DNA from: Candidatus Binataceae bacterium
GTDB lineage: Bacteria > Desulfobacterota > Binatia > Binatales > Binataceae
Direction: 5' to 3'
Length of the DNA: 42,400 nt
Assembly (NCBI GenBank): GCA_030038355.1
Contig: JASHPB010000149.1
Location: 1-42,400, forward strand
Shown: positions 8,068-35,430 of the stretch, in pieces
Layout: each line of letters begins with the position of its first letter
Numbering within the stretch: position 1 is the stretch's first letter
Translations under genes and position numbers: made by a program
The notes under the pieces: model-generated
Databases searched by the model: none
Told to the model about the DNA's origin: nothing
What the model saw: the letters and a program-made list of their open reading frames with translations, nothing else

Positions 8068-8090
8068 TGTTCGCGCGACGATAAACATTA

Positions 8091-8995: not shown

Positions 8996-9000
8996 GAGTC

Positions 9001-10743: not shown

Positions 10744-10770
10744 CAAACTCATCGGGGAGTTCCCTGCATT

Positions 10771-17355: not shown

Positions 17356-17369
17356 TGTAGTTCTCCTTC

Positions 17370-18569
17370 TCAATAGCGACGTTGAGCCGCCGCCATCTCC
17401 GCGCGTGCGCTCGGTTCAAGCAGCGCATCGATCGCTCGAAAGTAATGCATCCGCTCTTCGCGCCAATCGATCAGCTCCATCGTGCGTTGCGTCTCCTTCA
17501 CCATTCGCCAGCGTATCGAGGGATTGTCATGAATATCGGCGATAGCGGCCGCCAGCGCGACGGGGTCGTCGGGCTCAAAAAACCGCACCGCGCCGTCGCT
17601 GAAATAGTGCTCGATCGTGCGCAACTTGGAGGCTATCACCGGCAAACCGAGCACTGCGTACTCGAGGAGTTTCACCGGCAGCATGAGGTGAGTCGCAGGG
17701 CTCGCATGATTGGGAACCAAACCTACCGATCCGCGCTGGATGATTCCGGGCAGTGCCTCGACCGGGACCGGCGGAACGAATTCAACCAATCGTTCCACTC
17801 TCAGTTCGTTGGTGAGACTCCTGAGCTCCGCTAGGTAATCACCGCCGCCGACGACGATTAGACGCGCGTCGGGCAACCGCTCACGCAGCAGAGCAAGCGC
17901 CTTCAGCGCAACATCTACCCCTAACCGCTTAGTAATCGTCCCATGACAAACCAGGGTGAAGTTTTCACTGCTGACGCTCGTGTGCCGCTTTTCTCCGAAG
18001 ATCTTTTGATCGGGAGCATTCAGCACTACGCTTATCTTTCTGCCAGAGATTCCTGCCTGCTCGAGTCTTCTCCGGTGCAGTTCGTGGACTGCAAGCACGT
18101 GATCGGCAAGCCACGCGCTGATCCGCTCTTCGAGCCTAAGCAGCATCACGCCTAGCTCGCCACGCTTTCCATCGCGTTTGTCCAGGTAGAGCTCAGGCAT
18201 TGTGTCATGAATGTCTAGTATGACTCTGGTTCCGAACAAGCGGAGTGGAAGTGTACTCATCACCGCAGCGTCGGGCATTGAGCAGGCGATGGCAACTTCA
18301 TAAGGGCGCTTCAAAGCCCGACGAAAGCCCTTCCACGCAGCGAGCACGAAAAACCTCAGATAACTCAAAAAATAGCTAAGCCTGTTATCACCTCGGTATC
18401 GTGGGATTTCGATGCCGATAACATTTACGCCGTCACATTCGCCTTCTTGTTCATTGCGCAGACAGATAACATCGATCGCGTCGCCGCGATCGGCCAGTGC
18501 TTGCGCTTGTCTTTTTACACGTGCATCGCTGGCGTACCCCGTGTAGGCAATCATCAATATGCGAGCCAC
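17370..18569 (-). CDS. Glycosyltransferase family 4
   Basis: This 399-residue GT-B-fold protein starts GTG-initiated with ARILMIAYTGYASDARVKRQAQALADRG. The acceptor domain carries ILDIHDTMPELY, and the hinge before the donor domain has SVVLNAPD. The donor site reads HLMLPVKLLEYAVLGLPVIASK, with the conserved K-x2-E pattern that binds the nucleotide-sugar phosphate. It would add a sugar from a nucleotide donor to the growing lipid-linked repeat unit on the cytoplasmic face. It lies 7 nt after the deacetylase-like gene and 14 nt before the dehydrogenase-like gene. Donor and linkage cannot be told. Confidence 0.87.
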   Translation of the reverse strand: MARILMIAYTGYASDARVKRQAQALADRGDAIDVICLRNEQEGECDGVNVIGIEIPRYRGDNRLSYFLSYLRFFVLAAWKGFRRALKRPYEVAIACSMPDAAVMSTLPLRLFGTRVILDIHDTMPELYLDKRDGKRGELGVMLLRLEERISAWLADHVLAVHELHRRRLEQAGISGRKISVVLNAPDQKIFGEKRHTSVSSENFTLVCHGTITKRLGVDVALKALALLRERLPDARLIVVGGGDYLAELRSLTNELRVERLVEFVPPVPVEALPGIIQRGSVGLVPNHASPATHLMLPVKLLEYAVLGLPVIASKLRTIEHYFSDGAVRFFEPDDPVALAAAIADIHDNPSIRWRMVKETQRTMELIDWREERMHYFRAIDALLEPSARAEMAAAQRRY

Positions 18570-18576
18570 TTAGACC

Positions 18577-19758
18577 TCACTGGAATATAGGCACTTCGCT
18601 AAGTCTTCGGACCACAAGTTCGCCAGCATCAGCTCCAACCACCTGAGGTTGGTCCTGGCAAACTACCAGAGCTGCTTCGTCACGATGCCTCCACCAGGCA
18701 GCGATCTCAGAGGGCAATGCATGCCAAGCGTCCAACCTTGCCAGATGGCTCAGCAAATCCTTATAAGCGCTAAGATGTGGCTCAATCGACACATACCTTG
18801 GCTCGGTGGCCAACAGAATCATCCCTCCTGCGTTCGCGATCCAGTCGGCTTTGAGCGACCAGGTTGCCAAAGGGTTGCGGCGCAACAACCGGATCAACGT
18901 GTGGTCCCGCGCCAGAGTTAGTGGCAGCTCCACCGATCCTCCAATGAAGAACGGGAAAATGCTGCAGGTTCCACCCGGTCGTGATTCGAAGGGATCTGTA
19001 TCACAGAAGGATGATTCGAAATCGCAATTCAGACCGCTGACCCGACCTACATCACGGCAAGCCGAGGGGCTGCGGAAGCCCTTTAGCTGACAATCGCGGA
19101 CGGCTCGCTCCAGCCTGGGCTTTAATCTTCGAATCTCGTCTTTGCCATCGGCGGAGGCATCTCGGACACCAAATTCGACACCCCGCGATCGCAACTCCTC
19201 GATCCGGCGAAGGTTGCACTCTAAGTCTTCGAGCGGCAAGTACCAAGCTGATCGAAATCCAAATGCTCCTTCGAGCGTGGAAATTGCCTCAATCTGCTCA
19301 CAATCAGCGGAATTGCAGATGTCATGTGTGAGCACTATCGAGCACCTAGCGCCTTTCGGCCAGAACGCCAGATGCCAACCGTCATTGATTTGGAGCTCTT
19401 CGAGAACCTGGCGAAGCCAACGGCGCCAATACTCGATGAGCGCCGTCTCGCAAGGCCAGTGCGGAAAGTTGAGACGCGCTCGGCTTCGAGCCTCAATTCG
19501 ACTTGAGAACCTGGACGTGAATTGATCGCTCTTGTCGCCCGGTAACGTAGATCGTTGTCGTCGTCGCTCCATGAACGCGACGTATCGTTCGAACAGAAAA
19601 TGCTCGGCCTGGATTCTTGACTTGTCGATCGAGTCCGTGACCGTTTCGCGCCAGTCTTCGGGAAGTTTCCAAAACGAGAAGGCATCATTGCGCGCGCGCA
19701 ACGATTTTCCATCGCTCGATTGGACATGCTGGAGACGACGATCCGCTGCTAGTGCCAT
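18577..19758 (-). CDS. Polysaccharide-deacetylase-like protein with lost metal histidines
   Basis: This 393-residue protein matches the deacetylase-like family of exopolysaccharide loci. That family typically carries a HDxD motif, a GVH-x3-H-DGK motif and GFRSP. Here LTHDIC (143-148) and GFRSPSACRD (227-236) are kept, but the central motif reads GVRDASADGK (197-206), with Arg and Ala at the positions where His is expected. Without those ligands a normal metal hydrolase mechanism looks unlikely. It overlaps the GT2 gene by 10 nt and precedes the GT4 gene by 7 nt, so it is co-expressed with the sugar-transfer machinery. It could bind the polymer rather than cut it. Confidence 0.65.
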   Translation of the reverse strand: MALAADRRLQHVQSSDGKSLRARNDAFSFWKLPEDWRETVTDSIDKSRIQAEHFLFERYVAFMERRRQRSTLPGDKSDQFTSRFSSRIEARSRARLNFPHWPCETALIEYWRRWLRQVLEELQINDGWHLAFWPKGARCSIVLTHDICNSADCEQIEAISTLEGAFGFRSAWYLPLEDLECNLRRIEELRSRGVEFGVRDASADGKDEIRRLKPRLERAVRDCQLKGFRSPSACRDVGRVSGLNCDFESSFCDTDPFESRPGGTCSIFPFFIGGSVELPLTLARDHTLIRLLRRNPLATWSLKADWIANAGGMILLATEPRYVSIEPHLSAYKDLLSHLARLDAWHALPSEIAAWWRHRDEAALVVCQDQPQVVGADAGELVVRRLSEVPIFQ

Positions 19759-20606
19759 CGCGACTCTCTTCCTAACAACCGCGAAAGCTGTTGCTCGCGA
19801 ATAAATTTCTGCAAGTCCGGAGGCGCGGCTTTGGGCAGACCGAGAAGGTAACCCTCCACATATCCGGCAAGCAGTGCCGCGCTGCCTACGATTACGGGCG
19901 GCTGAAACATCCGATGAACCGAACGGGCCAACATGAATGTCGGAGAATAGCCGATTCGGTATGCGGCGCGTCCCGCAGCGAGCCGCCCCTTCACCAATCC
20001 CTCGGCAGAGCCCTGGGGACGATGGTGACGCGCCTGGATGTGGCGGAAAGAACGCGTGTGATAGCCATGCATCATTGCCCGCGCTTCATCCAAAGTGTCC
20101 CATCCGAGACCGGCGTCCAGACCACCAATCGTGCTGAAACAGTCGCGACTGTACATCTTGAGAGCCCCGCGAGTATGAAAGGAAGGTTGTCGCGATTCCG
20201 ACCATCTTCCTTCTGACCGCTCATACAGAGTCGCGCCCGCTATACCTAACTGTGAATCACGCGAGAATTCTCTTAGTAGGAGAGCAACTAGTGTCGACTC
20301 GAACGTCAGATCGGCGTCGAGACGGAGAACAAAGTCGTAACGACTCCATGTTTCGCGGCGAAGAAAGCTCATGATCACGGACTCGCCGCCAGCCGCGCGA
20401 GGTCGCGATCGCTCGAGATGATGAACTTCAATCCAGGGATGCTCGTCAGCCGCCTGCTCAAGGAGTTCTCCAGTTCGGTCCGTCGAACCATCGTCGATAA
20501 CGATCCATAGAGCGGGTGGGCATGTTTGATTGCAGAGAGAGGCGATCAAACCGGGGACAAGAATTTCTTCGTCCCGAGCGGGTGTAACAGCAACGTACGA
20601 ACTCAT
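19749..20606 (-). CDS. Glycosyltransferase family 2
   Basis: This 285-residue GT-A protein starts YVAVTPARDEE. It has IVIDDGSTDRT (nucleotide binding) and the metal-binding D-x-D in VLRLDADLTFE. Its acceptor region has GGLDAGLGWDTLDEARAMMHGY, which holds the ED-like catalytic-base region of family 2. A hydrophobic segment near the C-terminus (PPVIVGSAALLAGYVEGYLLG) suggests membrane association. ATG 20606 is preferred because GGAG lies 7 nt upstream. An ATG at 20645 overlaps the flippase stop (ATGA) and is the alternative. It adds one sugar of the repeat unit. Confidence 0.85.
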   Translation of the reverse strand: MSSYVAVTPARDEEILVPGLIASLCNQTCPPALWIVIDDGSTDRTGELLEQAADEHPWIEVHHLERSRPRAAGGESVIMSFLRRETWSRYDFVLRLDADLTFESTLVALLLREFSRDSQLGIAGATLYERSEGRWSESRQPSFHTRGALKMYSRDCFSTIGGLDAGLGWDTLDEARAMMHGYHTRSFRHIQARHHRPQGSAEGLVKGRLAAGRAAYRIGYSPTFMLARSVHRMFQPPVIVGSAALLAGYVEGYLLGLPKAAPPDLQKFIREQQLSRLLGRESRWH

Positions 20607-20641
20607 TTGATCAGCTCCGAGAACTTCTTTCCTACTTGCTG

Positions 20642-22156
20642 TCATCGCGTTTCGCTATAAGAGTCAACCGTTCCGAATGAAGTGTTCCCGAAGGCGGCCG
20701 AAATCATGCCAATCAGCGTGCGGCCTTCGAGGCAACCGTACGCGACAAGTGTTGCAGAAATGATCAGAAGCAATGCGACCAATCCTTCAAACCCGGCATC
20801 GAGAGCCGCCGTCTTGGCGATCAGTGCGCAGACCGCGCAGACGGCTGCCAGCCTGGCGCCTGGCAGTGCCGCAGCAACCAACTGTGAGATCTCGAGGTCG
20901 ATTAGGTAGCAGGCGAACCACAATCCGACTATGGTCACAAGTCCTTCGGCGACGCTCACTGCGGCGCTGACGCCGAGAAGGCCATATCGACTGCAACTTG
21001 TAACAGCGATAACAATGAGAACAATCCGAAAGGTGTGCAGATATATGTCGATAGAAGGATAGCCCTTACTATAGTAGACCGACCCGATCGCGACTCTGAG
21101 CCCGCCGACTCCAAGACCTGCCGCGAGTAATCTCAATGGTTCGGACGCAGGCAACCACTTGTGGCCATAAACGCTGGTCACTATTTCCGGGGCAGCGACC
21201 ACAGATACCGCGACAAAGGGAAGCACGACACGGGAAACATAGTTGAAGAAATCGAGATAAGCCTTCGAGAGCGCTTGGTTGTCGTCCTGGAACTTGCAAA
21301 AGGCAGGATAGAGCACTCGACCTGCGACCTGATGCAGCCTATCGGGTACGAATCGGAGGAGATCCAAGGCGATTGTATAAAAACCGAGCGCAGCGCTGCC
21401 CAAAATACGACCTATCAAAATAAACGACACGTTGCTGGAAATCAGATATAGGAACTGGCCGCCGGAAACGCTTGTGGAAAACTGAAGAAGGTCCTTCGCG
21501 GCAGTGAGTCGCGGGAGTCCTAAATTACCTCGAGGTTCTCCGATCCAAATTGCGAGTGCGTGGGTTGCCAAGCGCGCCGCCAGCGCAATCGGCAGGGCCA
21601 AAGTTGGCTTCCCGTGAGCAGCTACTGCGAGGGCGACGCCCAGAAACACAATTGCGCCGACAAGGTCTGCAAGCGCGAGCATCCCGAAGCGGAGTGAGCG
21701 CTGAAGTCGCGCATTCGAGATAACTACACTGCCTTCGAGCAGAATTGGAATGCAAAGCAGCCGCGCCCCGATTGTTAACTGCGGCATTTTCATCGACGCC
21801 GCGATAATTGGAGCGCCCATCCATAAGCAACCGGCGCTCAGCAAGGCGAGGGTGCAGCTCATGCACCAGGCGGTGCTCTCGTGCTCGCGCTTCAGCACGC
21901 GTTGTTTGATCAGCGAGGCTGGTATTCCCGCCTCGTAGATGAGAATGCCTATCATGCCAACGATGACCAGGATCTTGAAAACACCGAAGTCGTGCGGTGT
22001 CAGCTCGCGCGCCAGAATGATCATCGCGGAAACCCGGATCCCCTGGATCGCTACTTCCGCGAGAACGTTGTCACGCACGCTGCGCGCAAACGCGGACCAA
22101 ACCGTTGCGCTTTCGACGGGTTTGGGTGCAGCAAGCTCGGTCTCGCGAGCCCTCAT
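20642..22156 (-). CDS. Lipopolysaccharide/exopolysaccharide flippase (Wzx-like)
   Basis: This 504-residue integral membrane protein has roughly a dozen hydrophobic helices. Its N-terminal signature is of the polysaccharide-synthase/MVF-like flippase family: AEVAIQGIRVSAMIILARELTPHDFGVF and EAGIPASLIKQ. It would move the undecaprenyl-linked repeat unit across the inner membrane. The ATG at 22156 overlaps the TGA of the sugar transferase (ATGA) and is preferred over the frame extension to 22225, which would overlap by 73 nt. It works between the initiating transferase and the polymerase/ligase at 30982. Confidence 0.87.
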   Translation of the reverse strand: MRARETELAAPKPVESATVWSAFARSVRDNVLAEVAIQGIRVSAMIILARELTPHDFGVFKILVIVGMIGILIYEAGIPASLIKQRVLKREHESTAWCMSCTLALLSAGCLWMGAPIIAASMKMPQLTIGARLLCIPILLEGSVVISNARLQRSLRFGMLALADLVGAIVFLGVALAVAAHGKPTLALPIALAARLATHALAIWIGEPRGNLGLPRLTAAKDLLQFSTSVSGGQFLYLISSNVSFILIGRILGSAALGFYTIALDLLRFVPDRLHQVAGRVLYPAFCKFQDDNQALSKAYLDFFNYVSRVVLPFVAVSVVAAPEIVTSVYGHKWLPASEPLRLLAAGLGVGGLRVAIGSVYYSKGYPSIDIYLHTFRIVLIVIAVTSCSRYGLLGVSAAVSVAEGLVTIVGLWFACYLIDLEISQLVAAALPGARLAAVCAVCALIAKTAALDAGFEGLVALLLIISATLVAYGCLEGRTLIGMISAAFGNTSFGTVDSYSETR

Positions 22157-23589
22157 ATACCCGAGCCTCGCAAAAGTGCGGGAAGTGTTCGCATCAGAAT
22201 CTTCAGATCTCCCACCAAAGACCAATCTTCCAGGTACTGGACGTCGAGCCGCACCATGTCATCGAAGGAAAGAGCATTTCGCCCGCTAACCTGCCATAGG
22301 CCTGTGATACCTGGTACTGCGTCGAGCCGGCGCCGATGCCAGTTCTCGTACAGTTCAATCTCGTAAGGCAGACCGGGGCGCGGACCTATCAAGCTCATCT
22401 GGCCGCGCGCAACGTTAATCAACTGAGGAAGTTCGTCGATGCTAAAGCGGCGTAAGATACGCCCGATGCGTGTAATGCGATGATCATTATTCAACTTGTA
22501 GATGTGATCCACGGAGCTGCTACTAACAAAGGCCTCGGGTTGGTTGCGAATCCACTTAGCGGTAAAGGCACGATGAACCGTGTCGTCCGATGCTACCTTC
22601 ATAGTTCTAAGCTTCAGCATCTCAAATGGCTCACCATGTGCGCCGATTCTTAGCTGGCGGAAAAAAATCGGCGCTCCGTCATCGAGCAGAATAAGCAGCG
22701 ACGCCGTGAGAAGTACTGGCGATGAAAAGATCAGCAGAATGGAAGCAAGTGCGACATCAAATGCCCTCTTGATTGCGAAATTGAGACCTTCGATCTTGCT
22801 GCCCCGGCGGCCGATTAAAGGGATTAGTCCGATCTGTTCAATCTTAAGCCCTGCCGCCAACGAAGGCAGCAGCCATGGAACGAGCCACCAGTCGAGACGC
22901 GCCTCGTCGCAAAGCCTAGTGACCTTCTCAATTTCCTCGCGCGAACCCTCCGGTATCGCGACCGCGACTTCCGCGCCGGGAAAGTGAGCGCGGATCTCAT
23001 CGAAGCGCTCTGGCACGGAAAGAACTGGAAGTCCGCGGTACTGGTGCACGCCGCCAACGGAGTCTATAAACATTACAGGCTCATAAGGACCTACTTCGTC
23101 GAGGACCTGATCGCAGAGGTACTTCCCGACATCGTTGAATCCTACGAGTACCAGTGGCACGGAGATTTTCGGATTCGCATAAAGTCGTACGATTAAGAAC
23201 CGCAACCAGGTTCTAGCGGTAATCACGAACAGCATCGCCAGAAGGCAGGCGATGGCCACGGTAATACGCGCGACCGCAACATGCAGGAGAAACCCGCCGA
23301 GCAAAGTAAGCAGCGTCCCTTCGGCGCATGCGAGAACGACGGCTAGAATTTCCTTCGAACCGCCATTACGCATACGATAGAGATCGTTCCATCGAAAAAC
23401 GGCCACCCACAGCACGATCACGGACCCGACGCCCAGAGCATCGATTGCCGGGCCTTGCTCGAGGAATCGGTGCTCGATGGCCTGCGAAGGATCATGAAGA
23501 CTTAGTGCAGCGACGAACGCGGCTAGCAAAGCAAGCATGTCGCCACATGCGAAGATCGCTTTCTGCTTGCGAAGTTCGTCAGCCAGCAT
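22153..23589 (-). CDS. Exopolysaccharide polyprenyl glycosylphosphotransferase (initiating enzyme)
   Basis: This 478-residue protein has four or five N-terminal membrane helices and a CoA-binding/Rossmann-like middle (VPLVLVGFNDVGKYLCDQV). A bacterial sugar transferase domain follows: NFAIKRAFDVALASILLIFSSPVLL, FEMLKLRTMK, RRFSIDELPQLINVARGQMSLIGPRP and VPGITGLWQVSGRNALSFDDM. It resembles WcaJ/WbaP-type enzymes, which transfer a sugar-1-phosphate to undecaprenyl phosphate to start the repeat unit. The first sugar cannot be told. It is preceded by the aminotransferase gene (6 nt) and coupled to the flippase by ATGA. Confidence 0.92.
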   Translation of the reverse strand: MLADELRKQKAIFACGDMLALLAAFVAALSLHDPSQAIEHRFLEQGPAIDALGVGSVIVLWVAVFRWNDLYRMRNGGSKEILAVVLACAEGTLLTLLGGFLLHVAVARITVAIACLLAMLFVITARTWLRFLIVRLYANPKISVPLVLVGFNDVGKYLCDQVLDEVGPYEPVMFIDSVGGVHQYRGLPVLSVPERFDEIRAHFPGAEVAVAIPEGSREEIEKVTRLCDEARLDWWLVPWLLPSLAAGLKIEQIGLIPLIGRRGSKIEGLNFAIKRAFDVALASILLIFSSPVLLTASLLILLDDGAPIFFRQLRIGAHGEPFEMLKLRTMKVASDDTVHRAFTAKWIRNQPEAFVSSSSVDHIYKLNNDHRITRIGRILRRFSIDELPQLINVARGQMSLIGPRPGLPYEIELYENWHRRRLDAVPGITGLWQVSGRNALSFDDMVRLDVQYLEDWSLVGDLKILMRTLPALLRGSGI

Positions 23590-23595
23590 GATTCC

Positions 23596-24792
23596 TCAGC
23601 CGCGTGCGAACGATGCTTCGCCTGTGGAGACCGGATTCCCGACGATCGGTGTGCTCGCCTTGGGCTCAAGGCAGCTTCGAATTGTTTTGACGACTTGGGT
23701 CACGTCCGCGTCCTGCATATGAGGATGTATCGGAAGCGACAGGATGCTGTCGGACCAATTTTCACTGACTGGAAAGTCGCCCGCATTGTATCCCAGTGAT
23801 CGAAGTGCCGGTTGGAGGTGAAGTGGAACAGGATAGTGAATTCCGCATTCGATCTGGTTCTCGAGCAGCGCCTGCCGAATGGCGTCACGCCTTTGCGATC
23901 TGATCACGAAAAGATGATACGAGGATTCGACATCGTCCAGATGATTTGGCGTCTGCAGATCGCAATCGATCAACAAGTGACGGTATGTGTCCGCGATCTC
24001 ACGGCGTCGTGCATTCCAAGCATCCAGCCTTTTCAGTTTGGCACTCAGCACCGCGGCCTGGATGGTATCGAGCCGCGCGTTGTAACCGCAGTCCTGATGC
24101 GCAAAGTGAGACATCCGGCCGTGATTGCGAAGTCGGAGCACCCGTTCCGCGATGCCCTCGTCGTTGGTGGCTACCGCACCTGCCTCGCCCCACGCTCCCA
24201 GGTTTTTGCCGGGATAGAAGCTGAAGCATCCGGCCTCGCCAATCGCGCCCGCCATCTTCCAACGGCCCGCGCTGAAGATGCGCGCGCCGTGTGCCTGGCA
24301 GGCATCCTCGATTACCGCCAGCCGAAACTGCTTTGCAATTTCGCCGATCTCGTTCATCGCCGCAGGCAGTCCGTAGAGATGGACCGGCACAATCGCGCGA
24401 GGTCCGTTCTTTGACCTGAAGCGTCCGGCTTCCAGATACGAAGCCAGAGCGCGCGGATCCATAGTGCCCATCATCGGATCGATATCGACGAAAGAGGGCG
24501 TCGCGCCGGCCTGAATGATCGCAGCCGCGGTCGCGATAAAGGTCGACGGCACTGTGATGACTTCGTCGCCCGCGCCGATTCCAGCCGCTATCAGAGCCAA
24601 CCTGAGCGCATCCGTTCCGCTGCCGACGCCGATCACTCGCCGAGCGCTCAGATAGGCGGCGAACTCGGCTTCAAATTCGGCTACCTGCGGGCCGTCAATG
24701 TAGCTTGTGTTGTGATGGATTTGTGCGAACTTACGTTCTACGTCCGAAGTGATTTCGCTGTTCTGCCGAGCCAGGTCGAGAAACTTAATCAT
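23596..24792 (-). CDS. DegT/DnrJ/EryC1-type sugar aminotransferase (WlbC/WbpE-like)
   Basis: This 398-residue PLP enzyme carries the family signatures VGSGTDALRLAL, VPSTFIATAAAI, IEDACQAHGA and the lysine loop SFYPGKNLGAWGEAG, with the Schiff-base Lys at about 196. It also has RLRNHG and the NARLDTIQAAVLSAKLKRLD dimer region. It converts a keto-sugar nucleotide to an amino sugar. Directly upstream are an oxidoreductase and a hexapeptide acetyltransferase. Together these form the set used to make UDP-2,3-diacetamido-uronic acids in the Wlb/Wbp pathways, which suggests position 3 as the amination site. That assignment rests on context. Confidence 0.9.
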   Translation of the reverse strand: MIKFLDLARQNSEITSDVERKFAQIHHNTSYIDGPQVAEFEAEFAAYLSARRVIGVGSGTDALRLALIAAGIGAGDEVITVPSTFIATAAAIIQAGATPSFVDIDPMMGTMDPRALASYLEAGRFRSKNGPRAIVPVHLYGLPAAMNEIGEIAKQFRLAVIEDACQAHGARIFSAGRWKMAGAIGEAGCFSFYPGKNLGAWGEAGAVATNDEGIAERVLRLRNHGRMSHFAHQDCGYNARLDTIQAAVLSAKLKRLDAWNARRREIADTYRHLLIDCDLQTPNHLDDVESSYHLFVIRSQRRDAIRQALLENQIECGIHYPVPLHLQPALRSLGYNAGDFPVSENWSDSILSLPIHPHMQDADVTQVVKTIRSCLEPKASTPIVGNPVSTGEASFARG

Positions 24793-24804
24793 CGAAGTAT
24801 GTCC

Positions 24805-25302
24805 TTATGATTCAAGAATTCGACGGATGCGTGCCGGCTCGCCGGCGACGATCGCACGATCGGGTACATCGTGTGCGACGATCGCCCCCGCACCTACAAG
24901 CGCGCCCGGGCCGATTTCAATGCCGCACATGATAACCGCACCGCTGCCAATCGAAGCACCTTTGCGAATGATCGTGCGTTCGAGCTCCCAATCGCTTTCA
25001 TTCTGCGGCGACCCGTCGGCCTTGCTTGCACGGGGGCGCCGGTCGTTGATGAAGACGACGCCATGCCCAATAAAAACCTCGTCCTCGATAGTGACGCCCG
25101 AACAGATGAAGCTGTGGCTCGAGATCTTGCAGCGCTGGCCAATCGCAGCGTCGCGCTGCACTTCGACAAAGGCGCCGATGCGCGTGTCGCTACCGATGCG
25201 GCAACCGTAGAGATTGACGAAGGGCGCCAGCCTCACGTTTTCGCCGAGCACCACGTCACTAGCGACCATCGCGGTCGGCGCTATGCTTTCTTGTTCACTC
25301 AT
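24805..25302 (-). CDS. Hexapeptide-repeat N-acetyltransferase (WlbB/WbpD-like)
   Basis: This 165-residue left-handed beta-helix protein has clear hexapeptide repeats (VVLGENVRLAPFVNLYG, CRIGSDTRIGAFVEVQ, AAIGQRCKISSHSFICSGVTI, EVFIGHGVVF, ASIGSGAVIMCGIEIGPGALVGAGAIV). It has a typical end, RAIVAGEPARI. It fits the acetyl-CoA-dependent acetyltransferases that act on amino-sugar nucleotides. ATG 25302 lies 2 nt after the oxidoreductase stop. It sits between the oxidoreductase and the aminotransferase, the same trio composition as in wlb/wbp clusters. Confidence 0.87.
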   Translation of the reverse strand: MSEQESIAPTAMVASDVVLGENVRLAPFVNLYGCRIGSDTRIGAFVEVQRDAAIGQRCKISSHSFICSGVTIEDEVFIGHGVVFINDRRPRASKADGSPQNESDWELERTIIRKGASIGSGAVIMCGIEIGPGALVGAGAIVAHDVPDRAIVAGEPARIRRILES

Positions 25303-25304
25303 GG

Positions 25305-26405
25305 TCAATCGATCGACGGTCGCACCACAGGCACGAGTGTCCCTCCGTTTTGGAGCGATTGGTTGGCTGCCTCGAGCACGCTTACGACTCGAATGCCAAC
25401 CAGCCCGTCAGTCCGCGGTTCCTGACCGTGCTCAATGCAGTCGATGAAGTGTTCGCACTCGACGTGCAGCGGTTCAGTTTCCTCGACTCGCGGGCTGTGA
25501 ACGTCACCGTAGCGATACGAGAGCTGAAAATCGGCGTAAGTGTCGTAGTAACGCTGTACTGAAACACCTTTATCGTAAATTCGAACCTTCTCGTGCAGGT
25601 CGGTATCGTCGTAGACGAGCATCTTGCGCGAGCCCACGATCGTTGTGCGTCGAATTTTGTTCGGATCGAGCCAGCTAACGTGAATGAAAGCTATAACGTT
25701 TCCCGAGAAATGGAGCTCGAGCATCGCCACGTCTTCGACGCCTTCGCGGTAATGGCTTCGGCCCTGGCAGCTCACGGCCTCGGGCGTCCGCCCCATCAGC
25801 ATCAGGATGATTGAGATGTCGTGAGTAGCGAGATCCCAGGCGACATTTACGTCTCGTTGGAAGAGACCAAGGTTGGCGCGAGTTGAGCTGATGTAGAAGA
25901 TCTCGCCGATCTCGCCCGTAGCGATAACTTCGGCGAGCTTCAACACTGGCGCGCTGTACTCGAACGTGTGACCTACCATCAGTACCGCGCGGTTGCGGCG
26001 CGCGACTCGGACCAGATCTTCGCCCTGAGCCACCGAGGTCGCGAGCGGCTTCTCGACTAGGACGGATTTACCGGCCTCCAGCAGCTGACGCGCAATCGGG
26101 TAATGGGTGCCGACTGGTGTAGCAACCACGACGCCTTCGATGTCGGGATCCTCGATCACATCGTCGAGCGAGCTTGACAGCTCAACTCCCGGAAACATGT
26201 TTCCGATTCGCTCGCGGCGTTCGCGATCCAAATCGCAGGCGACCAGCCGCTCGGCGCGCTGGAGCTGGTTGAGGTTCCGGATCCAGTTTGGACCCCAGTA
26301 ACCGAGTCCAACGACGGCGACCCCACGCAGTCCAGTTCGCTCGCTGAGAGCGCTGTTCACGCCTCGATAGTCGCCATCGACCCGAAGTTCAGAGTTTTGA
26401 TTCAT
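25305..26405 (-). CDS. Gfo/Idh/MocA family oxidoreductase (WlbA/WbpB-like)
   Basis: This 366-residue NAD-dependent sugar dehydrogenase has the N-terminal Rossmann motif (VAVVGLGYWGPNWIRNL), VVVATPVGTHYPIA and the catalytic-region signature LVEKPLATS. These are followed by MVGHTFEYSAP and WDLATHDISIILMLMG in the substrate domain. In Wlb/Wbp pathways this enzyme oxidises position 3 of UDP-N-acetylglucosaminuronic acid before amination. The ATG overlaps the stop of the upstream kinase-like gene (ATGA), and the acetyltransferase starts 2 nt after its stop. The UDP-GlcNAc 6-dehydrogenase needed before it is not present as a full-length gene in this window. Confidence 0.9.
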   Translation of the reverse strand: MNQNSELRVDGDYRGVNSALSERTGLRGVAVVGLGYWGPNWIRNLNQLQRAERLVACDLDRERRERIGNMFPGVELSSSLDDVIEDPDIEGVVVATPVGTHYPIARQLLEAGKSVLVEKPLATSVAQGEDLVRVARRNRAVLMVGHTFEYSAPVLKLAEVIATGEIGEIFYISSTRANLGLFQRDVNVAWDLATHDISIILMLMGRTPEAVSCQGRSHYREGVEDVAMLELHFSGNVIAFIHVSWLDPNKIRRTTIVGSRKMLVYDDTDLHEKVRIYDKGVSVQRYYDTYADFQLSYRYGDVHSPRVEETEPLHVECEHFIDCIEHGQEPRTDGLVGIRVVSVLEAANQSLQNGGTLVPVVRPSID

Positions 26406-27181
26406 GACCTTTTGAGACTCCTCAGTAAGTTGAAGGGGGGAGCACTGGCGCCGTTCAGGATCACCCCCGCCGTTGAGCGGTTCGCTGCACGAAGCGCCAC
26501 TGCCGTGGTCGACAACTCCTGGCGTCGAGTAACGCCGTATCTGACAACCAGCAGCACCGGATCAGAACTGCGTGCGAGCGGCAGCATGCGAGCGTCCAGA
26601 CGCGGCACGCCCAGGTCGAGGATAACTGCCTGATAGTCAGAAAAGAGATTTTCAAAATCGTTGATCACTTCGGCGCACTGACGTTCATCGTCGCCCAGAT
26701 AACAGGTGGCGATATCCAGGCGCGGCCAGCCACTGCCGCGGATCTGCAGCGTACCCTCCAGCAGGAGCTCGGATGCCCGCTCGCGTCGCAAGCTGAATAC
26801 CCGATGCAGCGCGGGACGCCGAATGTGCGCGTCCACGATAATCGTCCTGAGCGACAGCCTTTGGCTCATATCGAGAGCGAGCGCCGCAGCGACCGTTGTC
26901 ACCCCGTCCCCGGGACGGCACCCCGCCACGGCGAGGCGCAGACTCTGATCAACGACTGCTAGCGGTGCAACGCGCTCCGCTATGGCTCTGAGTGCGTCGA
27001 GTTTGGCCAGCGAGTCGGGAAGATCGGCAACCGTCGGCAGCGCCACGAGCGACCTGGAGCGCGTGCCCGGAGTCGCCTCACTCTCTTGTTGTGTATTCCG
27101 CTCAGGCTGCAGATTAGGCGGCGGAATCTCCTCGACAGATTCGCTGGCGAGCCGCGCCATCGCGTCGGAATATCTGCCCAC
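26402..27181 (-). CDS. CpsD/CapB-like tyrosine-kinase homologue with degenerate Walker A
   Basis: This 259-residue protein has the P-loop fold of bacterial tyrosine kinases that pair with Wzz/GumC-type proteins. The Walker A region reads GCRPGDGVTT (about 88-97), where Val takes the place of the catalytic Lys of GxGKS/T. The Walker A-prime motif is IIVDAHIRRP, with His instead of the usual Asp in VDAD. No tyrosine-rich C-terminal cluster is present. It probably does not phosphorylate like Wzc but may still contact the chain-length protein. It starts with GTG, preceded by GGAGG. It lies 2 nt after the ExeA-like gene and overlaps the oxidoreductase start. Confidence 0.78.
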   Translation of the reverse strand: MGRYSDAMARLASESVEEIPPPNLQPERNTQQESEATPGTRSRSLVALPTVADLPDSLAKLDALRAIAERVAPLAVVDQSLRLAVAGCRPGDGVTTVAAALALDMSQRLSLRTIIVDAHIRRPALHRVFSLRRERASELLLEGTLQIRGSGWPRLDIATCYLGDDERQCAEVINDFENLFSDYQAVILDLGVPRLDARMLPLARSSDPVLLVVRYGVTRRQELSTTAVALRAANRSTAGVILNGASAPPFNLLRSLKRS

Positions 27182-27183
27182 GA

Positions 27184-28230
27184 TTACCGCACCTCCGGAT
27201 TGGTCGCCGCGCGCGGCGACCCCGCTATCGAAATGTCAGACGAAATGGTGCCCCGATGAATCCTGTTCACCGCATTGCGAATCTCGCGGACGGCGCCGTG
27301 GCGCTGGCCTCCGACGAGGCTGGCCAGACCGACAGCGGATGCGACCGCAACCGAAGCGCCGAACATCCACAGCCGGTGCCGCGACGGCTGCTTTTTTACT
27401 GCGGTGGCAGTGCCGACCGATGCACGCTGGTTTTCAAATTCTTCGATCGTCGACTGAACCTGCCGAGCGGTAACCTTTCGCTGTCCAGCCGCGTACGCGG
27501 CGAGCATCGCGTTGTGACACAGTACGTTGACGCGTCTGGCGATGCCGTTGGAGTGCGCGACGATCAGTTTCAGTGCGGCGCGCGCAAAGACCTGATCGGC
27601 CGCGCCGTTCGCGGTATGAATGCGATGGCGGATGTACTCAACGACTTCCCGCTCGCTCATCGGTCTGAGCAACACCCGTGCGCCTATGCGTTCGTTTAAT
27701 TGCCTGAGCATCGGCGCTTCGAGTCGCTTCAGAATCGAAGGCTGGCCAACGAATATGACCTGGAGCCGCCTATCGCCGAGCACGGCACAATTTCCGAGCA
27801 GCCTTAGTTCCTCGAATAGAAGGGGACTTAGCGCCTGGGCTTCATCGAAAACCAACGCGACGCGTTGCTCGGGTCCAACCTCGCGCAAGAGGTCAACGAA
27901 CGCCTCGGCGCACTCAAACTTCGATATTTGCGAGGAGCGGCTGCCAAGCTGGCGCAGGGCGCTGCGGAAGATTTCGAGCGGCTCTGCCTTGGGATAGTTG
28001 AGGAAGGCACTAATAGCCTCCGCCCGATACCGTTCAAGCACCGCCCTGACGATCGTGCTCTTGCCCGTGCCGGGCTCACCGATCAATAGGGTGTAGCCAG
28101 TAGGCTCGTGCAATAATCCCCAACCAAGCGCCGCCATCGCTTCGTTCTGCTCGCGGCCTCGATAGATCGCGCGCGGCGTGACGGTGAACTGAAACGGCGC
28201 GCTGCTCAATCCGAAGTGGCGATAGTACAT
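27184..28230 (-). CDS. ExeA/GspA-like AAA ATPase of polysaccharide loci
   Basis: This 348-residue protein begins MYYRHFGLSSAPFQFTVTP, the usual N-terminus of ExeA-type ATPases. It has Walker A GEPGTGKST (about 51-59), Walker B VALVFDEAQ, and the sensor region IFVGQPSILKRL. One membrane helix follows (about 288-306), and the remaining ~40 C-terminal residues lie beyond it. Relatives lie in exosortase (XrtA/PEP-CTERM) exopolysaccharide clusters as an associated ATPase; no exosortase is seen here. The role is probably in assembly or energising of the envelope machinery. It sits between the Wzz-like gene (13-nt gap) and the kinase-like gene. Confidence 0.82.
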   Translation of the reverse strand: MYYRHFGLSSAPFQFTVTPRAIYRGREQNEAMAALGWGLLHEPTGYTLLIGEPGTGKSTIVRAVLERYRAEAISAFLNYPKAEPLEIFRSALRQLGSRSSQISKFECAEAFVDLLREVGPEQRVALVFDEAQALSPLLFEELRLLGNCAVLGDRRLQVIFVGQPSILKRLEAPMLRQLNERIGARVLLRPMSEREVVEYIRHRIHTANGAADQVFARAALKLIVAHSNGIARRVNVLCHNAMLAAYAAGQRKVTARQVQSTIEEFENQRASVGTATAVKKQPSRHRLWMFGASVAVASAVGLASLVGGQRHGAVREIRNAVNRIHRGTISSDISIAGSPRAATNPEVR

Positions 28231-28243
28231 CTTAAGCCTCGGC

Positions 28244-29764
28244 TCAGTTCTGATCGGCGAGCGTCGCGACCACGTGAAGCCCGCTCTCCCTGGCGATCGT
28301 CACGGTCGAATAGATGTGTGCGTCGTTGCGCTCGTCGAATTCGGCCGCGGCGATTCCGAGACCTGCCGCCAGCACGAGACCCACGATAAAGTTCAGCAAC
28401 ACGATCGGAAACACGGGGCGGAGGGGCCGGTTCGGCGGCTGCGCCACGCTCACGTTGAGAATCTTGCTGGTGTTGAGGGCGCCGGCGGCGCGCGCCTCCT
28501 CGGTTTTCTTTACGTATGAGATCAGGGCTTGTTTGTCTGTCGCGACCTGACGCTCAAGGCTGTCATATTCGGTTTCGTTCTTGATCAAGTAATCGATACG
28601 CTGCTTACTCTTGGAGATTTCTTCATCCAATTTCTGCTTGGTTCCGTTTAATGCCGCGACGTTCGTTTTGCTCTGTGCGAGATCGGAAGCGACACTCACC
28701 CAGACAGGATTAAGGTCGGTGCTTTTTTCGCTGACCTCGAGATGATTCTCCTGGTCGAGGATTCTCTGCGCAGCGGCCAACTTGTCGTCGATTTCTCGGA
28801 TCCTCTGGCTGTTTGGTTGATAGCGGCTCAGCAGGTCGGCGCGTTCGGTCTTGAGCTCCATCACTTGCGGCTTCAACTGGGCCAGCGCCATATCCTGGAC
28901 CTGTCTGACTTCCTTGCCGATCCGTTCGGGGGTCTTGGTGAACTCGGTCTGGAGCGCGGAGGTCTGCTGTTCCGCGGCGCCGAGACTCGCGTTGTTCTTG
29001 CTGTCCTCGAGTTGGAGGTCCGAGAGCCGCGAAATCAGGGCCTGACGCTGCTGATCCAGATCGCTGATGCCGGTCTGCAGTTGAAATGCTCGCATTTGTT
29101 GCTCGGACGCAGCCAACTTGTCCTGAAGTAACTTCGCCTGCTGTTGAAAGAACAGCTCAGCCTGAGGGTCATGCGAAATGCGCGCATGAACCTCTTGATA
29201 GTGAGAAATCAAGAGCTCCAAGAACTGCTGCGCCCACTCAGGGTCATAAGACTTGAAGCTTATCTCCAAGACGTTCGAGCGCTTCACCACGTTTGCATCG
29301 AGGTGGCTCATCAATTCCAGCGCCCAATGGTCTTTCGATGTCATCGTGGGAGCATCGTGCAGTGCGCGATAGCAGCGCCCGGGCAGCGACATAAGAGTTT
29401 TCGCGCCGTCGATAAACGCCGCTCCTGGACCGTCGTAGCGCTCAGGCTCCTTCAGGCTGGAGATTGCCTGGCTGACAAGGTACTCGCTGGTCAGCAGTTC
29501 CTTCTCGGAGTTGAGGTCCTCTTCAGTCACCGGATTGGAAACGAATGCGGGCCGCTCGGCTGATTCGCCCTGCTCCAAGTCGGGCGAGACGAGGAACTGC
29601 GCGCGATTGTCCTGCACTAGAATTTGCGCGGTCGACTTATAAATTGGCGGCCAAAAGATCGTCGCTACGGCCACCAGGCCGAAGACAATCGCGCCGACGG
29701 TAATTACTCGTCTGCGTCTTCGGCACACGAGTTCTAGCCAGTAGTTCAGATCTCTTTTTTCCAT
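28244..29764 (-). CDS. Chain-length determinant / GumC-like Wzz family protein
   Basis: This 506-residue inner-membrane protein has one helix near the N-terminus (about 20-40) and a long extracytoplasmic region. That region is rich in coiled-coil heptads (about 190-410, QQQAKLLQDKLAASEQQMRAFQ and similar). A second helix at the C-terminus is preceded by the proline-rich Wzz signature QPPNRPLRPVFP. It controls polymer length and bridges to the outer-membrane Wza channel. ATG 29764 starts MEKRDLNYWLEL; the frame is open a little further upstream without homology. Unlike Wzc it carries no fused kinase; the separate kinase-like protein two genes downstream may serve instead. Confidence 0.9.
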   Translation of the reverse strand: MEKRDLNYWLELVCRRRRRVITVGAIVFGLVAVATIFWPPIYKSTAQILVQDNRAQFLVSPDLEQGESAERPAFVSNPVTEEDLNSEKELLTSEYLVSQAISSLKEPERYDGPGAAFIDGAKTLMSLPGRCYRALHDAPTMTSKDHWALELMSHLDANVVKRSNVLEISFKSYDPEWAQQFLELLISHYQEVHARISHDPQAELFFQQQAKLLQDKLAASEQQMRAFQLQTGISDLDQQRQALISRLSDLQLEDSKNNASLGAAEQQTSALQTEFTKTPERIGKEVRQVQDMALAQLKPQVMELKTERADLLSRYQPNSQRIREIDDKLAAAQRILDQENHLEVSEKSTDLNPVWVSVASDLAQSKTNVAALNGTKQKLDEEISKSKQRIDYLIKNETEYDSLERQVATDKQALISYVKKTEEARAAGALNTSKILNVSVAQPPNRPLRPVFPIVLLNFIVGLVLAAGLGIAAAEFDERNDAHIYSTVTIARESGLHVVATLADQN

Positions 29765-29795
29765 GATTTCGCGGCGGTGCTTTGAGTCAGTAAGG

Positions 29796-30587
29796 TTAGA
29801 ATGCCAGTGGCGCATCCGCTGCTATGTAAGGATTGACCGGCAGCATCTCGCGAACGTATTGGTTCATCCACTTATCGAGATTGGCGATGGTGCTCTTCGG
29901 CACGACGACGATATCGCGCGTCTCGAGTGCGAGGTCTTCGCCCGCGTCCGGGCTGTTCGTCGCAGACTTGAGATCGATCGGCATGGCCCGCGCGACACCG
30001 CAGGCGTCGCGGCGGATCAATACCGCCTTGTTGCCAGCGTTGTCGGTTAGGCCGCCGGCATCTGCCACTGCCTGCAGCACGGTCATACCGTTATCAAGGG
30101 AAAGGCCGCCCGGCTTTTGTACTTCGCCTTCGACGAACACTTCGCGGCTGGGCATGTTCTTGAGACTCACTGAAATGTCGGGATTGCGAAGTTCACTCGA
30201 ATAGTCCTTGTTCAACTCGTCAGCGAGTTCCTGCGGCGTGAGCCCCGCCGCCGGCGCGCTGCCGATCAGCATTAATGAGATCTGACCATCCGGTCGCACG
30301 GTCGCATCCTGATTGAACTCGGTGTTCAAGTAAGAGGTGATACTGACCTGATCGCCACGCTGTATGACGTACCTATCGTCCTGTTGCGCGGCCTGAACGA
30401 TTTGTCCGTTGGCCGCGCACTGCTCGGGCGACATTGCAGCTTGAGCACCGCTGGCGCGGTCCGCTTCGGTCGTTTCATTGCTCGCGCTTGAGGAGCATCC
30501 GGACAAGACGGCGATTGAGCAGCAAAGAGAGATCGCGATTCCCAACCAACAGCATTTCGACCGCGGGTTACAGTGCTCGTTTGGCAT
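29796..30587 (-). CDS. Polysaccharide export outer-membrane lipoprotein (Wza-like)
   Basis: This 263-residue protein has a lipoprotein signal peptide (hydrophobic AISLCCSIAVL, lipobox LSGC at about 26-29). The Poly_export domain follows (YVIQRGDQVSITSY, ATVRPDGQISLMLIGSAPAAGLTPQELADEL), then a SLBB domain (REVFVEGEVQKPGGLSL, TVLQAVADAGGLTDNAG). It forms the outer-membrane exit channel. ATG 30587 is chosen because it begins the signal peptide and lies about 57 nt after the predicted start of the sigma-54 promoter at 30655-30670. It is the first gene of the 14-gene leftward unit. Confidence 0.92.
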   Translation of the reverse strand: MPNEHCNPRSKCCWLGIAISLCCSIAVLSGCSSSASNETTEADRASGAQAAMSPEQCAANGQIVQAAQQDDRYVIQRGDQVSITSYLNTEFNQDATVRPDGQISLMLIGSAPAAGLTPQELADELNKDYSSELRNPDISVSLKNMPSREVFVEGEVQKPGGLSLDNGMTVLQAVADAGGLTDNAGNKAVLIRRDACGVARAMPIDLKSATNSPDAGEDLALETRDIVVVPKSTIANLDKWMNQYVREMLPVNPYIAADAPLAF

Positions 30588-30654: not shown

Positions 30655-30670
30655 CGCAACGACTGTGCCA
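30655..30670 (-). promoter_or_regulatory. Sigma-54 (-24/-12) promoter of the 14-gene export/biosynthesis unit
   Basis: On the minus strand the sequence reads TGGCACAGTCGTTGCG. It matches TGGCAC and TTGC of the consensus completely, with GG (30669-30668) and GC (30657-30656) separated by exactly 10 bp. Transcription would begin near 30645, leaving a leader of about 57 nt before the Wza-like ATG at 30587. The NtrC-type activator encoded at 11933 is the likely regulator. Confidence 0.75.
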
Positions 30671-30825
30671 TCGGAGCAAGCCACGACTTTTCCAACAATT
30701 TTCGACTTCGGGCATTCTGAGCGCGGAAGGAACTACAAAACTCGATCGTTAGAAATTACAAGAGGGAGGCTCTTTACCCAGGCGGATGCCAAGCAGCACA
30801 CGGCCCCGACGGGTATCTGCTAGTT

Positions 30826-30838
30826 TGTAACTACTACT
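30826..30838 (+). promoter_or_regulatory. Possible shared activator site between the divergent sigma-54 promoters
   Basis: TGTAACTACTACT shares GTAACTACT with 11701-11709 and GTAACT with the palindrome at 5113-5125. It lies 99 bp upstream of the plus-strand promoter at 30925 and about 156 bp upstream of the minus-strand promoter at 30670, within usual NtrC-type enhancer distances. A related inverted half-site (TTACAA) lies near 30757-30763. The evidence is a short shared word only. Confidence 0.28.
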
Positions 30839-30924
30839 ATCCTGAGTTTCCGATTACTCAATTAGTATTCGGTATTATTCGATGCATTCACCAGCGCCAT
30901 TGGCGTTTCACCAACGAATGCTGA

Positions 30925-30940
30925 TGGCATCGCGCTTGCT
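30925..30940 (+). promoter_or_regulatory. Sigma-54 (-24/-12) promoter of the polymerase/ligase unit
   Basis: TGGCATCGCGCTTGCT has GG at 30926-30927 and GC at 30938-30939, 10 bp apart. It differs by one base from the promoter at 5221-5236. A start near 30950 would leave about 31 nt before the ATG at 30982. It diverges from the minus-strand promoter at 30670, 255 bp away. Confidence 0.72.
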
Positions 30941-30981: not shown

Positions 30982-32490
30982 ATGGCTTCTACATTCCAAG
31001 CCTTTGCGCCCGTAAGCAATCGACGACGTCAGCCTGCTTCGCGATCAGGAATGTTCGCAGCGATCGCCGCGCTGACTCTCGTCGCTCTCGCATTGTTGCT
31101 TACAGATTCGAAGAAGCCGGCGCTGGCAATCGCTGGGGTCGCAGCGATCGCAGCGATCTGGTGGGGTACGTTGTACACATCGAAGCATCACGACTGGATA
31201 GTATTTCCAATCGAGTTGGTATTTGCGGTGATCGCGTTCGACTTCTTAAGCGAAGAAGTTCGTGCTCCGCTCCACTATGCCCTGCTTACTGTCTTTTGCG
31301 TCCCTTTGATTCCCACTGCTCTCCGCTCGGGAATCTTCCGGCGAGGCGGGTTTCGGAATTACACCTTCTATTTGGCTTTTGCGGCGATAACAATCATCTA
31401 CTCGATTGCTCCGATGTACTCGGCCGCACGATGGTACTGCGCAACGATCGTTATTCTTGCGCTAGGAGCAATGGTATCGGAATTGAACGATGCGGACGGC
31501 GTGGAACGAATTCTTTCGCACTTTTTCTTGGCCTGCTCGGTTATCGTCGCGATCATGGTGCTATCGCTCGGACTGCCCCACTCAATGTGCTGGGTGAGCC
31601 CTGCCGCCAGCTTCGAACCTAGCATGCTGCAGGATATGCAGAAGATGGGAGTCCGCCCCGATGGTATCGAGCGCTTTCAGTCGTTGTTTAGCGGACCCAA
31701 TGACGTCGGCGCGATCATGGTCGTCACGGTAGGCACGGGCCTCATGCTTTGGTCGTGGGCCACGTGGCGGCGGCGGATGCTGATTGCCGCTGTCATTTTA
31801 TGCGCAGTTTTATGCGCGGCCTTGGCAGATTCACGATCGCCCTTCGTCGCGCTGACGATCGGCATTAGCGGCTATCTTATCTGGCGCTATCGGTGGCGTG
31901 GCATTCTGTACCTATTTGCGGTGGCAGCGTGCGTATTCACAACGCTAGCTGCAAGCGGCCTTGATTTCTCCGCATACATCGATCGCGGCAATGTCACCAC
32001 GCTAACCGGTCGAACAGAGATGTGGATGTTCGTGGTTCACCAAATCGCTAGCAATCCCATCCTCGGCTACGGCTACGAAGTTAACGGCGCAATTTTCGAC
32101 AATCGCTTCTTCCCCTTGTGGTGGGGACCCTGGGAGCTGGGAGTCCACGTATCAGTTCACAACGGATACCTGGCGCACGCGGTCAGCGTCGGCGTGCCTG
32201 TAACCATCTTCTGGCTCTACATCATGCTGCGTCCGTGGAATTTTATCATGCGGCGCTCCAGCAACGAGTGGCGGCTCAAGCAAATGTTCTTCCTGCTGCT
32301 GATTCCGATCCTGGTGCACAATATGAGCGAGGTCATGGCTGACGATGCTCTGGGCACCGTTGGACTTATGTTCGGTCTGAGCTGGGTCATCGCCGAGCGT
32401 TATCGATTAACGAGCCTTGCGCGCGATGAAGCCGCGATCGCGAAGGAACGAGCCGCCATGCCGCGGGCGGTCGCGGCGTTCGCACCGTAG
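30982..32490 (+). CDS. O-antigen ligase / Wzy-type polymerase family membrane protein
   Basis: This 502-residue protein has about ten to twelve hydrophobic helices. The Wzy_C-type region is seen in the large loop after SRSPFVAL: TGRTEMWMFVVHQIASNPILGYGYEV and HVSVHNGYLAHAVSVGVPVTIFWL, the usual periplasmic loop with the conserved HN-x-Y. It polymerises repeat units or ligates the polymer at the periplasmic face. ATG 30982 is chosen over the upstream TTG (30964); there is no strong ribosome site. It diverges from the Wza-Wzz unit and is followed after 28 nt by a secreted lysozyme-like gene. Confidence 0.87.
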   Translation: MASTFQAFAPVSNRRRQPASRSGMFAAIAALTLVALALLLTDSKKPALAIAGVAAIAAIWWGTLYTSKHHDWIVFPIELVFAVIAFDFLSEEVRAPLHYALLTVFCVPLIPTALRSGIFRRGGFRNYTFYLAFAAITIIYSIAPMYSAARWYCATIVILALGAMVSELNDADGVERILSHFFLACSVIVAIMVLSLGLPHSMCWVSPAASFEPSMLQDMQKMGVRPDGIERFQSLFSGPNDVGAIMVVTVGTGLMLWSWATWRRRMLIAAVILCAVLCAALADSRSPFVALTIGISGYLIWRYRWRGILYLFAVAACVFTTLAASGLDFSAYIDRGNVTTLTGRTEMWMFVVHQIASNPILGYGYEVNGAIFDNRFFPLWWGPWELGVHVSVHNGYLAHAVSVGVPVTIFWLYIMLRPWNFIMRRSSNEWRLKQMFFLLLIPILVHNMSEVMADDALGTVGLMFGLSWVIAERYRLTSLARDEAAIAKERAAMPRAVAAFAP

Positions 32491-32518
32491 TCTCTCGCTC
32501 ACCCGCACCGGAGCTCAC

Positions 32519-33367
32519 ATGAAAATAAGATTTTCAAGAACACTAAGGCGGACTTGTGCCTTCGCCACCGCGATGGGCATCTGCCTGGTCGAGGCCTTCG
32601 CATTCGCCCAAGGGTTGAACCCAGAGCACTTCCCAACCTTGCCGCCCCATGCTGCGCTGCCGAGTGGTGCCGAGTGCGCGGCTGCTGTACGAGCCACAAA
32701 GGATCCCGTCGATCGGGTCACCGAACAGCTCCGACCAGCCAACGCAGCCGCCAATCAAACTATGCCGACACCCGAAGAGCTCGAGGCGTTTCACGCGCGC
32801 CCTGTGAAAGGTACTTTCGTGCCGGTCTCCGATTTCCTTCGCGTCAACGGTCAGTTCACAGGCACCACCGATCAGATACTGCGCTGGGGAGCATGCAAGT
32901 GGGGAGTCGATGAGGATGTAGTCCGTGCCGAGGCGGTAGCGGAATCACATTGGCGCCAATATGGCACAGGCGACCGCACCAGCAATCAGAGCCTCTGCCC
33001 TCCCGGTGATGGATTCCGTGGGGCATGGGACGGCAGCACCTGTATGCAGAGCTACGGCATCTTGCAGATGAAGTACTCAAGCTTCGGCGGCTTTCCCGCT
33101 TCCAAGGACAGCACGGCCTTTAACGTCGACTTCCGGCTCGCCTATCAGCGCGCGTGCATGAACGGCGACATCAATTACCTGCCCCGCCGCATACCGCCGG
33201 CCGGCTATCCGATTTATCCAAACGGCCCGACCGACCAGATGCTGTGGGGATGTATGGGCGACTGGTTCTCAGGAAGCTGGTTTGACCCCGGCGCGATTAA
33301 GTACATCACCGAGGTCAAATCTGATATGGACACGCGAGCCTGGCTGCAGCTGCCTCCAGACTACTAG
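32519..33367 (+). CDS. Secreted lysozyme-like (transglycosylase-fold) protein
   Basis: This 282-residue protein has an N-terminal signal peptide (CAFATAMGICLVEAFAFAQG). The core resembles the lytic-transglycosylase/lysozyme fold: a helix with RAEAVAESHWRQ, where Glu142 would be the catalytic acid, followed by MQSYGILQMKYSSF, like the GxMQ motif. Then come ST-FN-DFRLAYQRACMNG and MLWGCMGDWFSGSW. Several Cys pairs suggest disulfides. It could cleave peptidoglycan to allow export or act on the polymer itself. ATG 32519 has GGAG 6 nt upstream and begins the signal peptide. Its stop overlaps that of the ABC exporter (CTAG). A broken paralogue lies at 3275-4643. Confidence 0.75.
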   Translation: MKIRFSRTLRRTCAFATAMGICLVEAFAFAQGLNPEHFPTLPPHAALPSGAECAAAVRATKDPVDRVTEQLRPANAAANQTMPTPEELEAFHARPVKGTFVPVSDFLRVNGQFTGTTDQILRWGACKWGVDEDVVRAEAVAESHWRQYGTGDRTSNQSLCPPGDGFRGAWDGSTCMQSYGILQMKYSSFGGFPASKDSTAFNVDFRLAYQRACMNGDINYLPRRIPPAGYPIYPNGPTDQMLWGCMGDWFSGSWFDPGAIKYITEVKSDMDTRAWLQLPPDY

Positions 33368-35319: not shown

Positions 35320-35335
35320 AGCAACGCGCATGCCC
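35320..35335 (-). promoter_or_regulatory. Sigma-54 (-24/-12) promoter of the ABC exporter
   Basis: On the minus strand the sequence reads GGGCATGCGCGTTGCT. GG is at 35334-35333 and GC at 35322-35321, 10 bp apart; GGCA and TTGCT match the consensus. The first base is G instead of T. A start near 35310 leaves about 48 nt before the ATG at 35262. It is the fourth good match in this locus. Confidence 0.6.
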
Positions 35336-35399: not shown

Positions 35400-35430
35400 A
35401 CGATATCGTGTGTGGCTCACACGATATCGT
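35400..35430. promoter_or_regulatory. Perfect 13-bp inverted repeat (operator-like)
   Basis: ACGATATCGTGTG (35400-35412) and its exact complement (35418-35430) flank a 5-bp spacer. Each arm itself contains the palindrome ACGATATCGT. There is no T-run, and it lies between divergent genes 110-138 nt from each start, so an operator is more likely than a terminator. It is about 65 bp upstream of the minus-strand sigma-54-type promoter and could also control the MFS gene. Confidence 0.5.

Follow-up and report, generated by a model that had tools for sequence, protein, structure and literature searches.

The window, that is, the whole stretch of 42,400 nucleotides that was analysed, comes from an uncultured soil bacterium of the family Binataceae and contains a locus for the synthesis and export of a cell-surface polysaccharide, with three structural units. 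The first (5280–11628, plus strand) encodes a polysaccharide deacetylase, an FkbH protein, an acyl/acetyltransferase, an acyl-carrier-like protein and two unknown proteins. The second, of 14 genes (15180–30587, minus strand), encodes Wza-like and Wzz-like proteins, an XrtA-type ATPase, a BY-kinase, Gfo/Idh, acetyltransferase and DegT proteins, a polyprenyl glycosylphosphotransferase, Wzx, glycosyltransferases and others. The third (30982–33367, plus strand) is composed of a Wzy_C polymerase/ligase gene and a gene for a secreted protein that resembles a lysozyme-type lytic enzyme; this resemblance was judged by eye, and neither Pfam nor NCBIfam gave a match. Secreted proteins at 3786–4667 and 32513–33367 have a common segment, FSTLPPHASLPS/FPTLPPHAALPS...CA, and related proteins recur beside wza in relatives.

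Two intact reading frames are placed between the deacetylase unit and the 14-gene wza unit. From Pfam and NCBIfam matches and motifs, the product of the first (11933–13312, plus strand) was assigned as an NtrC-type enhancer-binding response regulator, with a receiver domain, an AAA+ domain with Walker A (GESGCGKE, residue 173) and GAFTGA (residue 220), and a Fis-type HTH; KTLYN is found at residue 440. Its partner (13337–15160, plus strand; Pfam/NCBIfam) is a membrane sensor histidine kinase with HAMP, PAS, HisKA and HATPase domains.

Predicted sigma-54 promoters of the three units

Two divergent -24/-12 elements were found in the intergenic region between wza and wzy. The wza unit is preceded by TGGCACAGTCGTTGCG (30655–30670, minus strand; 14.7 bits) and the wzy unit by TGGCATCGCGCTTGCT (30925–30940, plus strand; 14.4 bits). 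Both fit the consensus context TGGCAC-N5-TTGCW with GG-N10-GC spacing and lie 5′ of a gene. With the start of transcription set at 12 nt after the GC of the -12 element, +1 is predicted at 30644 for wza, 57 nt before the ATG at 30587 (a lipoprotein Wza homologue), and at 30951 for wzy, 31 nt before the ATG at 30982 (Wzy_C). The initial annotation had described this pair, with exact GG-N10-GC spacing and 31–57 nt between predicted starts and gene starts, and its sequences, strands, coordinates and distances were all reproduced. Both sites are confirmed in the sequence, but the count of two was short, since a third of equal quality had been overlooked, namely TGGCATCGCGTTTGCT before the deacetylase/FkbH/acetyltransferase/ACP unit (5221–5236, plus strand; 14.4 bits, intergenic, predicted +1 at 5247). 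With this addition, predicted sigma-54 promoters precede all three structural units of the locus (5.4–11.6 kb, plus strand; 30.6–15.2 kb, minus strand, 14 genes; 31.0–33.4 kb, plus strand).

Scores were calculated with a sigma-54 matrix of 12 columns, whose frequencies are approximate. The window holds three matches of at least 14 bits, compared with 0.45 expected from Markov shuffles, and the highest score corresponds to the wza site. Matrix scores in intergenic and coding DNA, a comparison proposed in the initial annotation, place the strongest matches outside genes: the top four are all intergenic, while non-coding DNA amounts to 9.8% of the window. A degenerate pattern with two mismatches was not enriched (25 in the window, 19.7 expected), so the information is carried by the strongest sites only. 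Spacing was controlled on 387 kb (the window and 20 related stretches). With the correct spacer, 14 out of 20 matches of at least 14 bits were upstream of genes, against 0–1 such matches when the spacer was lengthened or shortened by 1–3 nt. In addition, rpoN, whose absence had been named as evidence against these promoters, is present in the same genome (contig C88, E 3.5e-63, above the curated cut-off).

A palindrome upstream of the promoters and its conservation

Upstream of all three strong promoters, TGTAA-N3-TTACA occurs as a palindromic candidate enhancer (UAS), in exact or degenerate form; it too was overlooked in the earlier reading. The copy before the third promoter, TGTAACTCTTACA (5113–5125, plus strand), is a perfect palindrome centred 102 nt upstream of the -24 box and, by pattern search, the sole perfect TGTAANNNTTACA in the genome. 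In the divergent region, the UAS centres lie 84 nt (TGTAATTTCTAAC, 30748–30760, minus strand) and 93 nt (TGTAACTACTACT, 30826–30838, plus strand) upstream of the -24 boxes of wza and wzy, respectively; each promoter has one UAS at this near position and the other at a distal one (about 162/171 nt). Because the two palindromes are placed near-symmetrically, each could serve both directions. The distance from the conserved palindrome to the promoter fits the 80–150 bp expected for NtrC-type activators, whose binding is predicted here.

Since the palindrome was first noticed in the window, the motif search was redone on relatives without it, counting frequent 5-nt half-sites with gaps of 0–8 in ten promoter regions. 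TGTAA-3-TTACA ranked first, in 7 of the 10 regions, tied with GTAAA-1-TTTAC, which is the same core one base inward; shuffled controls reached a maximum of 6, once in 60. A UAS matrix derived from relatives matched all three promoters of the window, with about 0.007 matches expected per promoter, its training sites having been chosen after the palindrome was noticed in the window, while the de novo run retrieved the palindrome from relatives alone. None of 3000 shuffled sets had a UAS at all three promoters.

Specificity at genome scale was evaluated by pattern searches in the 5.05-Mb genome. The strict composite TGTAA-N78-108-TGGCA-N6-TTGC is present exactly three times, always within the window, which represents 0.8% of the genome, and the backwards control gave 0. 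Across 41 genomes of the family, the same composite was found 31 times and its backwards control 16 times; with this twofold excess, lone matches elsewhere in the family are not trustworthy without context.

The relatives of the source genome are Candidatus Binataceae, of the phylum Binatota. Of 40 wza loci compared, 19 have a sigma-54 site with a UAS upstream of the gene, and every one of these belongs to the 30 loci from Binataceae. In 20 shuffled control sets the combination did not occur. The UAS distance in relatives is 86 nt on average (s.d. 11). The composite is missing from 11 of the 30 Binataceae wza loci, some of which are paralogous loci. In the closest relative (L032), the divergent wza/wzy layout is the same, with two sites of 14.7 bits, and alignment of its intergenic region with that of the window confines conservation to the surroundings of the wza -24/-12 site. 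Outside Binataceae, the sigma-54 site is kept at several wza loci (L022, L023, L028, L029 and L031), and the UAS is present at none of them.

In at least nine loci of relatives, an activator orthologue (54–62% identical) and wza share a contig, 7–31 kb apart, for a chance expectation of about 1.5% per genome, and in most of these linked loci the kinase adjoins the activator. Activators outside Binataceae reach at most 47% identity among the matches listed.

A predicted locus-encoded switch and competing readings

The reading we favour, at a probability of roughly 0.8, is that all units of the polysaccharide locus form one sigma-54 regulon under the local kinase and activator, with three promoters and a shared UAS. 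As deduced from the sequence, the membrane kinase (13337–15160) would sense an envelope or external signal and phosphorylate the NtrC-type activator (11933–13312). The activated oligomer would bind the TGTAA-N3-TTACA palindromes, about 85–100 bp upstream of the three -24/-12 promoters, and remodel the sigma-54 RNA polymerase through ATP hydrolysis via its GAFTGA loop. The predicted transcriptional output is co-activation of the deacetylase/FkbH unit, the wza-to-glycosyltransferase unit and the wzy unit, and the pair of palindromes between wza and wzy may be shared by both promoters. The initial annotation, which had noted an NtrC-type activator and a kinase in the locus (both found here with intact domains), had spoken of a self-contained switch for the whole export system. 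A locus-encoded sigma-54 switch is supported by the conserved palindrome, its conservation upstream of wza and the linkage of activator and kinase to wza, but "self-contained" is too strong, since at least one matching promoter lies elsewhere in the genome, before an OmpA-family lipoprotein gene (L198/L072).

Alternatively, the promoters could be real and the palindromes bound by another activator, with the local pair controlling something else. The same genome encodes on contig C291 a paralogue, accompanied by a kinase of its own and by sigma-54-like sites close by; with activator paralogues about 55% identical in the genome, the sites of the locus could be served by a different activator, and the recognition helices of the family resemble each other. 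This is unlikely, however, because the activator linked to wza in many relatives is of the locus type and not the paralogue, and outside Binataceae the UAS and activators of such similarity are both missing, among the matches listed.

Identity with the PrsK/PrsR circuit of PEP-CTERM/exosortase bacteria appears very improbable. The logic is the same, with a Fis-type response regulator, an upstream box and a sigma-54 site at an EPS locus (PMC1569441), and the best NCBIfam models for Wza, Wzz and the ATPase are PEP-CTERM/XrtA-associated, all below cut-off. However, the activator scores 406.3 bits with the PrsR model TIGR02915 (cut-off 502.6), where the 26 genuine PrsR genomes give 659–755 bits and unrelated generic activators up to 445, and the kinase scores 67.1 bits with the PrsK model TIGR02916 (cut-off 300). 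The locus has no exosortase gene: PF09721 was found neither in the window nor in most relatives, and its one partial match in the own genome (29.8 bits) is a 121-aa frame on contig C83. The box derived here directly from the genuine PrsR genomes, TGTCRA-N5-TTTACA (17 nt), has the same TGT/ACA ends but is 4 nt longer than the 13-nt Binataceae site, and the recognition helix is SLKTLYNRL in this activator compared with [ST]RPT[LIM]Y in PrsR. With the activator below the family cut-off and both helix and box different, the identity was rejected. In both systems a kinase and a Fis-type response regulator are encoded in tandem close to EPS genes, and the box is made of TGT/ACA half-sites. The PEP-CTERM box is located about 63 nt upstream of the sigma-54 motif, with roughly 71 nt from that motif to the start codon (Haft 2006, PMC1569441). 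PrsR acts on PEP-CTERM protein genes, whereas the predicted targets of the activator of this locus are EPS assembly genes.

Chance -24/-12-like pairs in GC-rich intergenic DNA, with true transcription from other promoters, can hardly account for the data, as the unenriched two-mismatch pattern would suit this explanation but conservation, the spacing control, the UAS and the genome-wide specificity are all contrary to it, and a search for a sigma-70-type promoter in the wza/wzy intergenic region gave no match.

By analogy, the most likely mechanism of the locus-encoded switch is one that works like SypG/syp and PrsK/PrsR in logic. According to PMC4517449 (citing Ray et al. 2013) and PMC10162802, the syp locus of Vibrio fischeri depends on the sigma-54-dependent response regulator SypG and an enhancer upstream of the locus promoters. 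The architecture is common to both, with a sigma-54 response regulator within the polysaccharide locus and several promoters with an enhancer, control being predicted for the locus described here; V. fischeri uses a phosphorelay with the hybrid kinases SypF and RscS, whereas the kinase of the present locus is a simple HAMP-PAS-HisKA-HATPase protein. The Bep exopolysaccharide of Burkholderia cenocepacia is under RpoN/BerB control (PMC5552954), where, again, RpoN is joined by an enhancer-binding protein whose gene neighbours the EPS cluster. BerB, however, is a c-di-GMP effector whose target is the regulator gene berA; the activator of the present locus belongs to a two-component system, and its predicted sites immediately precede the structural units. 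More generally, Francke 2011 (PMC3162934) predicts sigma-54 and AtoC-like activators near EPS genes in many phyla, under a theme of sigma-54 control over the bacterial exterior that the Binataceae switch fits; that work describes a broad statistical trend and gives no circuit or enhancer specific to Binatota. The type of switch is already known, and the activator and control site are newly described and differ from their best-known relatives. In-locus sigma-54 control of EPS, known from Vibrio and PEP-CTERM bacteria, would extend to Binatota with an activator and a site of its own. For this little-studied phylum, represented here by metagenome-assembled genomes only, the analysis predicts a regulon and specifies its enhancer sequence and transcription starts.

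Sites outside the locus and weaker elements

A looser composite pattern revealed one further convincing element in the own genome, on contig C39. It consists of the UAS TGTAACTTTTTCC and the site TGGCATGGCGTTTGCG before an OmpA-family lipoprotein gene (L198 2248–2370, G000:C39), which is likely a regulon member outside the locus, as judged from these elements. In two other genera (L211 near 1515, minus strand; L055 11879, plus strand), composites also precede secreted proteins that were judged RlpA-like on inspection of their sequences.

In the Binataceae genus g2, the same UAS and a strong sigma-54 site precede a 90-nt structured element without an evident gene (L067 6692–6846, plus strand; L227 1601–1755, plus strand; L228 1515–1103, minus strand). 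This C-rich element has a long GGTTCGCCGGCGAAC stem, an inner hairpin with loop CCCCCUCCC and then a T-run (fold z -7.3). One copy is found in G002, near activator/kinase genes, and three are in tandem in G018. Strong matches to its model are restricted to this genus, neither the window nor the own genome contains a significant match to the model, and comparison with Rfam returned a sub-threshold match to ar14 only. The element is a candidate sigma-54-dependent C-rich small RNA.

We lean, with some reserve, towards an undescribed Binataceae sigma-54 regulon, with its own activator clade and the TGTAA-N3-TTACA enhancer, which would drive EPS assembly genes, envelope lipoproteins (OmpA-family in the own genome, RlpA-like in two relatives) and the tandem, C-rich, structured small RNA of the one genus.

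Within the window, a possible fourth sigma-54 site, GGGCATGCGCGTTGCT (35320–35335, minus strand; 13.5 bits, intergenic), lies before an ABC exporter gene; a matching UAS was sought for it and no composite was found. Upstream of this site, in the gap that separates the ABC exporter gene from the MFS gene, lies a perfect 13-nt inverted repeat, ACGATATCGTGTG/CACACGATATCGT (35400–35430), which may serve a different regulator as operator. Before the activator gene, a weak UAS-like sequence, TGTAATTATTTCG, and a weak -24/-12-like sequence, TGGTACCCCCTTCGCA (10.2 bits; together 11793–11865, plus strand), make autoregulation of this gene a marginal possibility. The equivalent sites are strong in some relatives (L056, L058, L059 and L069), where a sigma-54 site with a UAS-like copy before the activator gene suggests autoregulation.
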